Position numbers and translations under genes: made by a program. The notes beneath the pieces were generated by a model, which saw nothing but the letters and a program-made list of their open reading frames with translations, searched no databases and was not told the DNA's origin. Shown here piece by piece: positions 2,569 through 16,506 of a DNA stretch of 37,032 nt; within the stretch, counting starts at the first letter, position 1; each line of letters starts with the position of its first letter. The DNA comes from a virus, in IMG/VR virus record IMGVR_UViG_3300043399_000575, positions 1 through 37,032 of that record; one strand, 5' to 3'.

Positions 2569-2822
2569 TCGATCGTCTCCTTCCCGCGCATCCTCGCGCC
2601 GATCTCCTCGGCGAACGCGGCCTGTCGCAGCTTCCCGGATCCGGTCTCGGCGAAGACGCGGGCGGCGATCGCGGCGAAGGTCTCGACGGTCGCGACGGCA
2701 ACGACGACCTCATTCGGGAGCGGCTCGGTGCGGTTGCAAGTCAACTCCTCGCGGATCGTCAGGATCGCGTCGGCGACCGGGTTCATGATGGCGGAGAGTT
2801 CGTCCTTCGTCGGTTGGCTCAT
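2565..2822 (-). CDS. Hypothetical protein
   Basis: An 85-residue protein starting MSQPTKDELSAIM. The start at 2822 was chosen because GAGGAG lies 11 bases upstream and the ATG overlaps the stop of the preceding gene (ATGA); the open frame extends farther upstream without similar support. The sequence looks mostly helical, with an Ala/Val-rich middle (about residues 36-55, VVVAVATVETFAAIAARVFAE). No membrane segment, metal site or known domain is evident. Part of a run of overlapped small genes of unknown function in the distal early-left operon. Confidence 0.65.
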   Translation of the reverse strand: MSQPTKDELSAIMNPVADAILTIREELTCNRTEPLPNEVVVAVATVETFAAIAARVFAETGSGKLRQAAFAEEIGARMRGKETIE

Positions 2823-3082
2823 GCGTTGCGCTCCTCTGCCGCCCACCTACTGACGATCTCGGCGCACTCCTCGACGAAGATCTCTGCGTTACGTCGCGCC
2901 TCGGACTGCGTTGCGAACCTGCGCCCGTACCGAGTCGTGCCAACCATGCAGCCGTAAACGGTTCCGATCCAGCCGCGCACGAGCTTTCCGTCGATCACCT
3001 GATTGCCTTCCGTGACGCCAATGTCGTCAGGGAGCGCCATCGCGTAGGCGTTGATCTTCTGCCGCATCTGATCGCGGTTCAT
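2819..3082 (-). CDS. Hypothetical protein
   Basis: An 87-residue protein starting MNRDQMRQKINAYAMAL. The start at 3082 has AAGGAGAAG upstream and overlaps the stop of the preceding gene (ATGA). The middle has small-residue and aromatic segments (KLVRGWIGTVYGCMVGTTRYG), and the C-terminal half is an acidic helix (RRNAEIFVEECAEIVSRWAAEE). I do not recognise the family. It is cotranscribed with its neighbours and overlaps both. Confidence 0.65.
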   Translation of the reverse strand: MNRDQMRQKINAYAMALPDDIGVTEGNQVIDGKLVRGWIGTVYGCMVGTTRYGRRFATQSEARRNAEIFVEECAEIVSRWAAEERNA

Positions 3083-4404: not shown

Positions 4405-4835
4405 CAGCTTTCGACTCCCATCTCTTCCATCTTGCGATCGACGTACAGCAGCGCCTCGGTGAGCCTGCGCGTGTCCAAATAGGGCAGCTGCTCGTCGCAG
4501 TAACTGACCGTCCGGCGCAGCGCCTCGAGCTCGAATCCGGTCGGCCGGTAGACGCCATGCCGCTTCTCGCGCTCGATGATCGCCAGCAAGACGTCCTTGC
4601 CGATCTCGACAGGCGCGATCGGGCGCTTTGCCTCGGCGAGCGCGCGGCTCATAAAGTTCGCCAGCGTCACGATCGTCGTCATCGCGTCCGACTGGGCCTC
4701 GCGGTCCGGCGAGTGCATCAGCGTCCCGATGTGGACGTAGCACGGCAGGATCAAGTCGCGGCGCATCTTCTCGAGCACCGGACGCGCGGCGGCCCGCGGG
4801 CGATAGGCCTTCCTCGGGGCGGCGCTACGCGGCAT
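4404..4835 (-). CDS. Conserved phage hypothetical protein
   Basis: A 143-residue, mostly helical protein. The basic N terminus (PRSAAPRKAYRPRAAARPV) precedes segments resembling an early phage family of unknown role: a region around HIGTLMHSPDREAQSDAMTTIVTLANF, a middle VEIGKDVLLAIIEREKR, and a C-terminal FELEALRRTVSYCDEQLPYLDTRRLTEALLYV. No catalytic signature is visible. Related proteins occur beside recombination and replication genes in temperate phages of Proteobacteria (my recollection of the pattern). It overlaps the end of the upstream HNH-derived gene by 11 bases. Confidence 0.6.
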   Translation of the reverse strand: MPRSAAPRKAYRPRAAARPVLEKMRRDLILPCYVHIGTLMHSPDREAQSDAMTTIVTLANFMSRALAEAKRPIAPVEIGKDVLLAIIEREKRHGVYRPTGFELEALRRTVSYCDEQLPYLDTRRLTEALLYVDRKMEEMGVES

Positions 4836-5379
4836 GGCGCACCTCGCGCGGCCGGATCCAGTACGCCGCCGGCCCGAGCGCGCGCTGCCATGCCCGCATC
4901 GCGTGGCCGACCGCGCTGGCGGTGACGCCGTATCGCTCGCCGATCACGCGATGCGAGTCGCCCGCGCAGATCATTGCCCAAACGTCGTGACGGTCGGCGA
5001 TCGACAGGCGGGCGTCCTTCACGCGGCTCAGTGCGGTCATCAGCGAGCGCTGCGAGCCGGTGACGTACGCGCCGCGCTTCGCCGATGCCGCTGCGGCTTG
5101 GCGTTTGCTGCCGACGCGAAGGTGATCCTCGGCAAGGCAGTTTTTCTGCCCGCAGGACGTCCACACGAACTGCTTGCTCGTGACTTGCCGCCCGAGTAGC
5201 TGCATCATCAGCCGGCGAGCGCTGTGCTTGCGGTACTGCCAACCGACGACCGGGTAGCCTTCGCGCGTCGTGCCGCCGGCCCAGATCCGGCAGCCGGTGT
5301 CAGGGTCGATGCGGACGTGCGTGCGCAGATGCTCGAGCACCTGGTCGGCGGTCGGCGCGCCGGGATAGTCGGTCGTCAT
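4825..5379 (-). CDS. HNH_3-type homing-endonuclease-like protein with HTH tail, catalytic His missing (left copy)
   Basis: A 184-residue protein with the architecture of HNH_3 homing endonucleases: GCRIWAGG (about 29-36), GYPVVGWQYRKHSARRL (41-57), CGQKNCLAEDHLRVGS (76-91), then a helix-turn-helix region (about 128-165, IADRHDVWAMI ... VIGERYGVTASAVGHAM). In active members the second segment has AHR and the third begins with His before the first Cys of the pair. Here those places hold Arg56 (SARR) and Trp73-Thr74, while Cys76, Cys81 and His86 are kept. It probably binds DNA through the zinc fold and HTH without cutting. A diverged paralogue lies at 9920-10450 on the other strand. Regulation or architecture is inference. 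Confidence 0.7.
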   Translation of the reverse strand: MTTDYPGAPTADQVLEHLRTHVRIDPDTGCRIWAGGTTREGYPVVGWQYRKHSARRLMMQLLGRQVTSKQFVWTSCGQKNCLAEDHLRVGSKRQAAAASAKRGAYVTGSQRSLMTALSRVKDARLSIADRHDVWAMICAGDSHRVIGERYGVTASAVGHAMRAWQRALGPAAYWIRPREVRHAA

Positions 5380-9929: not shown

Positions 9930-10450
9930 GCCAGAGAGCCGCCACGAAGGCGGAGGCGCTGCGCTGGCTGCGCGAGAACGTCCGAGTGACCGAAGACGGC
10001 TGCCGGATCTGGGCTGGCGCGTGTCAGCGTGACGGCTACCCGATCGTCGGGTGGCGGTACAGCAAGGTCAGCGCCCGCAGGCTGCTGATGCAGCTGCTCG
10101 GGCACGACATCGACCGCTCGAAGGTCGTCTTCAATGTCTGCGGCGATCGGCGCTGCATGAATCCTGCGCATCTGCGCGTTGGCACCAAGGCCGAGGCCGT
10201 CGCGGTGCGTGTCGCCGAGGGCGCGTACCTGAGCGGAGCGCAGCGGTCTCTCCGGTCCGCGATTGGCAAGGCGCGCACCGCCAGGCTGCCGATCACCGAG
10301 CGGCACAACGCGCTGCGGCTGCGCGCCGACGGTTGGTCGCTCGCACGGATCGGTCGGCACTGCGGCGTCACCGGCGACGCGGTCGGGCACGCCATCAAGA
10401 CGTGGGAGCGGGCGCTCGGGCCGGCTGCGTTCTGGAGGGAGGCGGCATAA
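9920..10450 (+). CDS. HNH_3-type homing-endonuclease-like protein with HTH tail, catalytic His missing (right copy)
   Basis: A 176-residue paralogue of the product of 4825-5379 on the other strand. Segments in order: GCRIWAGA (27-34), GYPIVGWRYSKVSARRLLMQLLG (39-61), CGDRRCMNPAHLRVGT (74-89), then HTH (about 126-162, ITERHNALRLRADGWSLARIGRHCGVTGDAV). Active HNH_3 enzymes have AHR and a His ahead of the CD pair; here Arg53-Arg54 and Phe71-Asn72 occupy those sites, while Cys74, Cys79 and His84 remain. Both copies end ALGPAA-(Y/F)-W. It probably binds DNA and lacks cleavage activity. It sits directly upstream of the O-like gene, suggesting a replication or regulatory role; that is inference. Confidence 0.7.
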   Translation: MQVGQRAATKAEALRWLRENVRVTEDGCRIWAGACQRDGYPIVGWRYSKVSARRLLMQLLGHDIDRSKVVFNVCGDRRCMNPAHLRVGTKAEAVAVRVAEGAYLSGAQRSLRSAIGKARTARLPITERHNALRLRADGWSLARIGRHCGVTGDAVGHAIKTWERALGPAAFWREAA

Positions 10451-10452
10451 GC

Positions 10453-11421
10453 ATGGACTGGTTCCGCTGGTATCACGGCGCTGTCACCGACCCGAAGTTC
10501 GGCCTGGTTGCGCGCCGAGCGCAGGCCAGCGTCGCCGAGGTCATCGCGTGCTGGGCGTTCCTGCTCGAGCAGGCCAGCGCCGAGGGCGACCGTGGCGTGC
10601 TGGGCGATCTCGACTTCGAGTCGATCGACTACGCGCTCGGCATGGACGACGGCAAGGCCGAGCGGATCTTCGAGCAGATGGTCGCACGCGGCCTGATCGA
10701 CGGGGAAAGCCGGCGGATCAAGTCCTGGGAGAAGCGGCAGCCGAAGCGCGAGCGTCCGGAGGACGACAGCACGGATCGAGTCCGTCGGCACCGCGAAAAG
10801 AAACGCCAGGAAACGCCAGCGGACGATGGTGTAACGCCATGTAACGCCAAAAAACGCCTAGAGGAGATAAGAGGAGATAAGAGTAACTCTCTCTCCCTTC
10901 GGTCGAGAGAGCAGCGCGCGGGCGCGGGCGAGGACGTCGACGACATCGACAGCGACCAGCCGGACACCGACCCGCCTACCGATGCCGTGGACGATTCGCC
11001 AGCCCAGCTGCCGGTCGATCCGAGCGATCCGCCTGCTGACCCGCCGCCTCCTCCGACGCTCGCCGGCCAGGCCTGCCTGCTCCTGCGCCAGGCCGGGGTG
11101 CGGCGCGTCAACCCCAGCCACCCGGAACTGCTGCAGCTGCTGTCGCAGGGCGTCACGCCCCGGCAGATGGCCGACCTCGCCGACGAACTGCGCGAGGGTC
11201 GAGGAGCACCGCCGCACATGCCCTACCTCATCGCGACGATGGCTGGCCGGTTGAGGGATGCGGCCGCCGGAGGTCACAGCGCAGGCGTGCTGCCGCGAGC
11301 CCGCGCCTCTCCGGGTCAGACCCGCATCGAAGCCACGATCGCGAGCCTCACGGGCCGCAACCGAACGACGCAACCGGAGATCATCGATGTCACACCAGCC
11401 GCTGCCGCACGCTTGGGTTGA
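10453..11421 (+). CDS. Replication initiation protein, O-like
   Basis: A 322-residue protein. The N-terminal region (about 1-95, MDWFRWYHGAVTDPKFGLVA, VAEVIACWAFLLEQAS, LDFESIDYALGMDDGKAERIF) is the winged-helix replisome-organiser domain seen in YdaU-like and O-like proteins, which bind origin iterons. A basic linker, a long acidic Pro-rich stretch (about 150-205) and a C-terminal helical domain (QACLLLRQAGVRRVNPSHPE, GVTPRQMADLADEL) follow. By analogy with lambda O the C terminus recruits the P-like protein encoded next. The probable origin lies inside this gene at 10801-10911 and encodes the basic linker. The following gene overlaps its 3' end by 35 bases. Confidence 0.8.
   Translation: MDWFRWYHGAVTDPKFGLVARRAQASVAEVIACWAFLLEQASAEGDRGVLGDLDFESIDYALGMDDGKAERIFEQMVARGLIDGESRRIKSWEKRQPKRERPEDDSTDRVRRHREKKRQETPADDGVTPCNAKKRLEEIRGDKSNSLSLRSREQRAGAGEDVDDIDSDQPDTDPPTDAVDDSPAQLPVDPSDPPADPPPPPTLAGQACLLLRQAGVRRVNPSHPELLQLLSQGVTPRQMADLADELREGRGAPPHMPYLIATMAGRLRDAAAGGHSAGVLPRARASPGQTRIEATIASLTGRNRTTQPEIIDVTPAAAARLG
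10801..10911. other. Putative replication origin: iterons plus AT-rich repeats
   Basis: AACGCCA occurs at 10802, 10812, 10833 and 10843, and AACGCCT at 10853: spacings 10, 21, 10 and 10, so all lie on one helical face. Two tandem copies of GAGGAGATAA (10861-10880) make an AT-richer stretch next to them, and CTCTCTC (10887-10893) can pair with GAGAGAG (10905-10911). Placement inside the O-like gene is the lambda ori plan. Because a 10-base period is out of step with codons, the repeats must be kept for DNA function. Confidence 0.75.
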
Positions 11422-11869
11422 GCGCCTCTTCGCCCGGTTCTCGGCGACTTGGGGCGCGCAACGGCTGGCGACGATGTTCCCGGTCGACTCGCACGCCGAT
11501 GTCAAGGCATTGTGGGCTGAGCAGCTTGGTCGATTCGAACCGGAGACGCTGCGCGCTGCGCTTCAGTCCCTGACCGACTCCGGTCGAGAGTGGCCGCCAA
11601 CGCTGCCGGAATTCATTGCCGCATGCCAGCAGGCCGCGGTGGCCCGCCGCCAGCACGCGCCTGCCGCGCTTCTCGACATCCCGCGCGCTTCGCCCGAGGT
11701 CGCGGCTGAGCAGCTGGCCAACGTCGAGCGGATCGCATCGGCAGTGAAGCCGCGCAAGGGCCGAGAGTGGGCGCAGAAGATCCTCGACCGCGCTGCCTCG
11801 GGCGAGAACGTGCCGATCTGCGTGCGCCAGATGGCCGAGCGGGCGCTCGATCTCGAGGTGACGGCATGA
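11387..11869 (+). CDS. Replication protein P-like (helicase loader)
   Basis: A 160-residue protein. WVERLFARFSATWGAQRLATMF (about 9-30), DVKALWAEQLGRFEPETLRAAL (36-57) and REWPPTLPEFIAACQQA (65-81) match the phage replication protein P pattern, in which the WPP-LPEF motif is the most recognisable element. P-type proteins bind host DnaB and deliver it to the origin-bound initiator. It overlaps the O-like gene by 35 bases; GGAG lies seven bases before ATG 11387. The C-terminal part is Ala/Arg-rich and ends DLEVTA at a copy of the shared gene junction. Shorter than lambda P (233 residues). Confidence 0.75.
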   Translation: MSHQPLPHAWVERLFARFSATWGAQRLATMFPVDSHADVKALWAEQLGRFEPETLRAALQSLTDSGREWPPTLPEFIAACQQAAVARRQHAPAALLDIPRASPEVAAEQLANVERIASAVKPRKGREWAQKILDRAASGENVPICVRQMAERALDLEVTA

Positions 11870-15108: not shown

Positions 15109-16506
15109 ATGACTATCCCCGTTCAACCCGTCCGCTGTCAGTTCTACGATCAAAGCGCGAGCCCGGTCTCCGGTGCGCGAGTGCGGTTCACGCTGACCGC
15201 TCGCGAGGTCTATCAGGGGATCGTCGCGCCGACGGAGACCGAGGCGACCGCCGACTCGACCGGCGAGGTCGTCGTCAGCGTCTTCCCGAATGCGCTCGGC
15301 GTCGCCGGGTCGCGCTACCGCGTCACCGCCTGGAATCCCGCGAACGGCGACTCGCTGATCGACGCCTTCGTGGTCGTCCCTGACTCTCCGTGCGACCTGC
15401 ACTCGATCATCGACGAACCTCCATATCCGGAGGTCGATGCCGCACAGCAGGCTCTCGAAGGCGCACAGGCGGCACAGGCGGCAGCCGAAGCGGCGCGGGA
15501 TCAGACGCTCGACTTCGGCGCGACATTTACGGTCGAAGCGGATGCGTTGCCTGCTGGAAGCCCTGCAACGGCGACCTACGACCCGCTGACCTACGCGCTG
15601 CTGCTCGGCATCCCGGCGGGGCAAAAGGGCGACGACGGGGCTGATGGCGCTGTCGGTCCGGCTGGACCTGCTGGCCCCACCGGACCGCAAGGACCGCAAG
15701 GACCGCAGGGTCCAGAGGGTCCGCAGGGCGATCCCGGACCGCAAGGCCCGCAGGGAGTCCAAGGGCCGCAAGGCGACGCCGGACCGACCGGCCCACAAGG
15801 GCCGCAGGGCGACACCGGCCCGCAAGGCCCGCAGGGTCCACAAGGGCCGGCCGGTCCTCAAGGCCCGGCGGGCGCTGATTCGACGGTTCCTGGTCCGCAG
15901 GGGCCGGCAGGACCGGCAGGACCGCAAGGCCCCGCAGGAGCGGACTCGACCGTTCCGGGGCCTCAGGGGCCACAGGGCGACACCGGGCCGGCAGGCCCGA
16001 CCGGACCACAGGGACCGCAGGGAGATCCTGGCCCGACGGGGCCGACGGGGCCTCAAGGTCCGCAAGGCGATACAGGGCCGCAAGGACCAGCGGGCCCGAC
16101 CGGGGCGACTGGTCCGCAAGGCCCCGCCGGCGCGGACGCCACACCAATCGCCGCAATCGGCTACGTCATCGACGGCGGTGGCGCTGCGATCACGGCGGGC
16201 GCTCTTCCTGCGACACTGCGCGTGCCGTTTGCGTGCACGATCAACTCGGTCACGCTGCTCGCCGACCAGACGGGCAGCATTGTTGTGGACATCTGGAAGG
16301 ACAGCTACGGCAACTTCCCGCCGACCGTCGCCGACTCGATCTGCGCGAGCGCGAAGCCGACTCTGAGCAGCGCGGCGAAGTCCGAGGACACGACGCTGAC
16401 GGGCTGGACGACTTCCATCGCTGCCGGCGACACGCTCAAGTTCAACGTCGATTCGGCGACGACCGTACAGGCGGTCACGCTCATCCTCAAAGTGACGAAG
16501 ACATGA
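15109..16506 (+). CDS. Collagen-like tail fibre protein
   Basis: A 465-residue fibre protein in three parts: an N-terminal beta domain (about 1-110, [20 protein letters not shown]), an Ala-rich helix (about 110-135, [20 protein letters not shown]), and about 58 Gly-X-Y triplets (168-343, many GPQGPQGP) ending in a beta C-terminal domain (to [13 protein letters not shown]). Collagen-like repeats form long triple helices in phage fibres, and the C-terminal domain probably trimerises or binds the receptor. AGAGGCGAACC precedes ATG 15109. Its location between terminase and portal is unusual. Gly-X-Y coding repeats are prone to length change. Confidence 0.85.

Follow-up and report, generated by a model that had tools for sequence, protein, structure and literature searches.

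A helically phased repeat array within a phage initiator gene is a likely replication origin

On the strength of the comparative evidence presented here, we propose that a phased array of short repeats, lying in that part of a phage initiator gene which encodes the linker of the protein, is the binding region of a lambda-style replication origin. We consider this reading likely (probability about 0.82); it has been inferred from sequence alone, with no binding or replication data.

Results

The initiator gene and its surroundings

The window (the whole stretch of DNA analysed here, 37,032 bases) is a phage record carrying repressor-/regulator-like genes and genes for RecE/RecT-like recombination proteins, a RusA-like resolvase, and terminase, portal and tape-measure proteins. 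Its initiator belongs to a family (PHROG 3729) that also occurs in Pseudomonas, Aeromonas, Escherichia and cyanobacterial phages, and its relatives are annotated as replication protein O, primosomal protein I or replisome organizer. In Pfam, the sole match of the window initiator is unrelated (E=0.06), with no O-family or RepA_N match, and neither was matched by 97 initiator relatives; the family has no significant match in Pfam, NCBIfam, PDB sequences or Foldseek. The P-like loader reaches only E=0.053 against Pfam Phage_lambda_P, under the cut-off. In the AlphaFold2 model of the initiator, the predicted basic helix 106-120 is separate from the winged-helix-like domain (Table 1). Genes for a helicase, a loader or a primase lie beside the array, both in the window and in several relatives with annotation; none of the annotated phage stretches that we examined has an origin marked in it.

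Elsewhere in the window, two similar HNH-endonuclease-like genes were observed (4825-5379, minus strand, and about 9950-10450, plus strand), the second of which directly precedes the initiator gene, as well as a collagen-like ORF (15109-16506, plus strand) that encodes long Gly-Pro-Gln repeats and whose product probably belongs to the tail or the surface. Rfam and tRNA scans of the window gave no match.

Table 1. Features of the initiator locus (positions in the window)
Feature	Position	Strand	Basis and remarks
Initiator gene	10453..11421	+	322 aa; PHROG 3729 replication initiation protein, hmmscan residues 3-118, E=2.6e-8
Predicted winged-helix-like domain, residues 14-95	10492..10737	+	AlphaFold2 model, pLDDT mostly >90
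Predicted basic recognition helix, residues 106-120	10768..10812	+	Helix in AlphaFold2 model; covariation with repeats
Iteron array	10802..10859	+	AACGCCA at 10802, 10812, 10833, 10843; AACGCCT at 10853; degenerate copy at ~10823
Junction CCTAGA, boundary of array and purine tract	10857..10862	+	AGA spacing kept in relatives
Purine-rich low-GC tract, candidate unwinding element	10859..10886	+	Two GAGGAGATAA copies
7-bp inverted repeat CTCTCTC/GAGAGAG	10887-10893/10905-10911		Weakly supported third element
P-like helicase loader gene	11387..11869	+	PHROG 109, E=4.5e-6; overlaps 3' end of initiator gene

A phased array that does not follow from the encoded peptide

A first-pass annotation had reported five AACGCCA/T copies beside two tandem GAGGAGATAA copies, and both observations were confirmed. 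The array has six positions, the 21-bp gap being filled by a degenerate GACGATG whose ACG core (10823/10824) falls in phase by a one-base shift. Successive ACG cores lie about 10, 11, 10, 10 and 10 bp apart, and the GAGGAGATAA copies (at 10861 and 10871) keep the same 10-bp register as the iterons. The 7-base unit described at first was corrected to a 10-bp repeat with the core NNACGC, in which the base before ACG varies by dialect. Across the 37-kb window, AACGCC is the only 6-mer with at least four copies at steps of 10, 11, 20 or 21 bp, and no second such phased array was found; phased 6-mers with at least four copies were absent from 100 order-2 Markov sequences, and a five-copy chain arose in 3 of 20,000 synonymous codon shuffles that kept the protein sequence.

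The array could instead have no function as DNA and merely reflect a linker peptide that is itself repetitive and charged, as the linkers of such proteins often are. However, a 10-bp step shifts the frame at each copy (the first bases of the five repeats other than the degenerate one fall in codon phases 1, 2, 2, 0 and 1, i.e. in all three), the signal is gone in synonymous shuffles, and an intergenic copy of the array exists in a relative described below. This explanation is all but excluded.

Conservation of the layout in relatives

The comparison rests on 113 non-redundant relatives, many from metagenomes, whose initiators are 24-64% identical over the N-terminal domain. They have a common layout at the same position of the gene, namely 10/11-bp NNACGC repeats followed by (C/T)AGA and then by a purine-rich, low-GC tract, and this fixed order and orientation is shown by the sequences. 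A strict junction rule is met in 94 of the 113, most of the others showing arrays by eye, and in 84 of the 94 relatives with the junction AGA begins 5 or 6 bases after the A of the final ACG. Four relatives lack an in-gene array (L006, L125, L128 and L139).

In 96 relatives, we counted 756 5-mer matches at a lag of 10, where synonymous shuffles gave 76.6 (sd 11.5; ~10-fold excess, z=59), with further peaks at lags 20/21, 30/31 and 40/41; in L099, ten repeats follow each other at mostly alternating steps of 10 and 11 bp, averaging about 10.5. The helical repeat of B-DNA is ~10.5 bp. The lag peaks, set against synonymous shuffles, and the ~10.5-bp spacing therefore demonstrate selection on the DNA and on its rotational phase. 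Two earlier claims, that selection acts on the DNA and that there is one repeat per helical turn, held in more than 100 relatives; the continuous row of initiator subunits envisaged with them is an inference.

The purine tract stands out in composition. In the window, the 40-mer at 10849 has 37.5% GC, compared with 67% for the region, and in the relatives the mean GC of the 45 nt counted from the final ACG is 41%, compared with 61% for the gene, the stretch being lower in 94 of 94. The tracts of relatives read, for instance, GAGAAGAG or GATAAAGATACAGATA; in some relatives with purine-rich helix codons automatic placement failed, and these were read by eye. The hairpin proposed in the first-pass annotation fared less well: the inverted repeat is present and stems of at least 7 bp occur at this place in 31% of relatives (10% in synonymous shuffles, 15% in a control region), but the single-strand fold of the window segment is no better than dinucleotide shuffles (z=-0.32). 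With so weak an enrichment and such a fold, the hairpin was dropped as a firm third element.

Two side observations concern individual loci. A C6-N3/4-C6-N2..4-G6 motif (e.g. CCCCCCATACCCCCCAAGGGGGG), potentially able to fold into a hairpin or triplex, lies directly past the purine tract in L031, L036, L037, L041, L042, L044, L053, L070, L071, L073 and L076. In L139 (Pantoea), the linker region (2756-3050) has a GIY-YIG-like stretch (YYVYFVVLRSNYDCYVGIS) and no phased array.

We also scanned 2.9 million viral contigs with the DNA pattern only and retained arrays that lay in a usable ORF and had a purine tract after them. Array and tract fell within initiator-family genes in 108 of 111 TCACG cases and 51 of 54 AACG cases, and the three TCACG exceptions look to us like an initiator gene in another frame or frameshifted. 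In 458,679 bases flanking initiator genes, the one chain of at least four cores is a relocated array (see below). At the level of sequence, the combination of array and purine tract is near-exclusive to this initiator family. Separately, 10-bp AACGC-type arrays were noticed in putative initiators with other N-terminal domains (L140, L157, L158 and L181), and from these it is possible that the array serves more widely than the family.

Repeat dialects covary with a predicted basic helix of the initiator

Most repeats have A, C or G directly before ACG, and this base hardly varies inside one gene. The protein columns with the highest mutual information with this dialect are residues 106, 110 and 113 (0.91-0.98 bit of about 1, in a subfamily with at least 45% identity), which share one face of the predicted helix; in the window initiator these putative specificity positions are S106, V110 and H113, and their codons precede the first repeat. 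With helices aligned by motif, K110 with Q113 corresponds to the C dialect (TCACG) in 45 of 45 loci, while the G dialect (TGACG) goes with T110 and Y113 in 6/6 and with an M+C helix in one more (7/7 together). Helices with V, A, S, Q or G at 110 are almost all of the A dialect (AACG), V/A/S/Q110 with an aromatic residue or His being mostly AACG, and finer trends are seen within it: S110 goes with GCAACG, Q110 with GTAACG, and A110 plus W113 with CGAACG.

In the pattern-found set, which overlaps the first set of relatives by about a tenth (judged by contig names), the KQ helix accompanies 51 of 59 TCACG arrays and none of the 51 AACG arrays; the TCACG arrays without KQ have helices that combine Q with S or H, or K with E or S. 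The two-residue rule has exceptions, namely TCACG arrays with QS, QH, KE, KS or AY helices and the CCCACAA repeat of L088; in view of the TCACG arrays with non-KQ helices, the rule is therefore a strong tendency and an incomplete code. Automatic assignment of dialect or helix was wrong for a few loci (e.g. L074 and L080).

In 14 of 14 disjoint pairs that are 64-86% identical over residues 1-92, dialect and helix class switch together. Natural pairs with a similar domain but unlike dialects include L020 (AACG) and L065 (TCACG), 84% identical over the domain, and L087 and L099, 86% identical. A tree built without the helix columns, and based on only 90 columns, supports three independent switches for the C dialect and two for the G dialect, all of them concordant. 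The covariation of helix and repeats is shown; that helix 106-120 reads the repeats via positions 106, 110 and 113 is suggested by this covariation, without binding data. The ~110-residue N-terminal construct initially put forward for binding assays would cut this predicted helix, and at least ~125 residues are needed.

Second and relocated arrays

In 26 relatives (including L010, L081, L084, L112, L117-L122 and L129-L134), a second phased array without a purine tract falls where the gene encodes the winged-helix domain, in most cases at residues 40-52; the window initiator gene has none. The second array is spelled like the main array in 20 of 20 genes with known dialect, the remaining six having lysine-type helices with TCACG, and the peptide encoded there varies with the dialect (ASRNVTRGHVTVT, SNATERGRTQ or SVTQGDASVTRGD). 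Such arrays might be extra binding clusters or autoregulatory sites, which for now is only a possibility.

In two relatives the array has left the gene. The initiator gene of Microcystis phage Mwe-JY25 (L358) has no array, and an intergenic one (41118-41194, minus strand) is found near the end of the record; it consists of three CGAACGCA, a further CGAACGCC and CCAGATACAGAGACAGAG, is accompanied by a purine tract, and has the spelling expected for the W113 helix of this phage. In L128, an array of matching dialect followed by AGAGAAGAGAAGAG lies upstream of the initiator gene and overlaps only a 57-codon ORF that is possibly no gene. Relatives that keep the protein, lack the repeats and have an array elsewhere had been named in the first-pass annotation as a refutation of the origin, and these two literally meet that description; they support the origin idea, because their arrays have the same spelling and a purine tract.

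The match of helix and dialect might also reflect the joint inheritance of neighbouring DNA, the array being a binding site with which the winged-helix domain makes the specific contact. In favor of this view, the helix codons and the main array start 1-80 nt apart in most loci, and few independent switches are supported on the tree; joint transfer of such adjacent segments does inflate the covariation. However, residues i, i+4 and i+7 stand out and the winged-helix columns correlate less, and the near-pairs described above switch dialect along with the helix. The second arrays, 200-300 bp away, and the out-of-gene arrays match the dialect too, which argues against mere linkage as a full explanation. 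We consider this alternative unlikely.

Discussion

In the origin model that we favor, several initiator molecules would line up along one face of the DNA, each bound to a repeat and spaced by one helical turn. Every molecule would read NNACGC mainly via the basic helix 106-120, with positions 106, 110 and 113 setting the bases before ACG. The row of proteins would then open the purine-rich, low-GC tract, whose side relative to the array is constant throughout the family, and the P-like loader encoded next door would bring the host helicase. All of these steps are inferred, from initiator binding and the one-sided row of subunits to strand opening, recruitment of the helicase and replication itself.

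An alternative is that the arrays are operators bound by the initiator to autoregulate its gene, with replication beginning elsewhere. They do sit in the initiator gene, and the second arrays without a purine tract could be regulatory. However, the arrays are well inside the gene and not at a promoter, the low-GC purine tract is always beside the main array and on the same side, and the window offers no other array; the operator explanation is thus very unlikely. Against the origin reading itself, GC skew, in which the first-pass annotation had proposed to look for an inflection, has none at the array (10.8 kb).

The likeness to lambda noted at the outset held for the architecture, origin function being inferred. 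The lambda origin in gene O has a three-part plan with four 18-bp iterons (PMC3349717, PMC7466680), and the locus described here resembles it in its direct repeats inside the initiator gene, its low-GC tract on one side and its adjoining P-type loader gene. Unlike in lambda, the units are 10 bp with a short NNACGC core, which does not meet the ~18-bp iteron criterion, and the initiator has no Pfam O-family match. In RepA_N plasmids such as pSK41, the boxes lie midway along rep and are bound by the winged-helix domain at the N terminus of the protein, whose linker is encoded by the origin (PMC5703833). Here too, a predicted winged-helix-type N-terminal domain is combined with mid-gene repeats in linker-coding DNA; unlike RepA_N proteins, the initiator has no Pfam RepA_N match and no fold match in a PDB library, and its specificity apparently resides in a separate helix after the domain. 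The profile that it does match, over residues 3-118 of its N-terminal domain, is that of PHROG 3729. By analogy, the system would work like the lambda origin and the RepA_N plasmids, while being a member of neither by iteron length or Pfam domains.

A search of the open-access literature, which left subscription journals uncovered, found no description of this type of origin. A bolder reading, toward which we lean by a narrow margin, is that such origins form a class of their own, widespread among phages and so far undescribed. One basic helix of the initiator would read iterons spaced a single turn apart by means of a residue-to-base code (positions 106, 110 and 113 for the bases before ACG), the initiators would stack in a continuous row, and each lineage would have a private dialect that reshapes the initiator protein itself at the second arrays. 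If this is true, the second arrays in the winged-helix domain would be a clear case of DNA-binding sites, their binding being inferred, that dictate protein sequence. The origins of many phages and prophages of Pseudomonadota, of cyanobacterial phages and of metagenomic contigs would become locatable from sequence alone, and initiator-origin specificity would be predictable from about three residues. Such specificity should then decide the compatibility of co-infecting phages and prophages.
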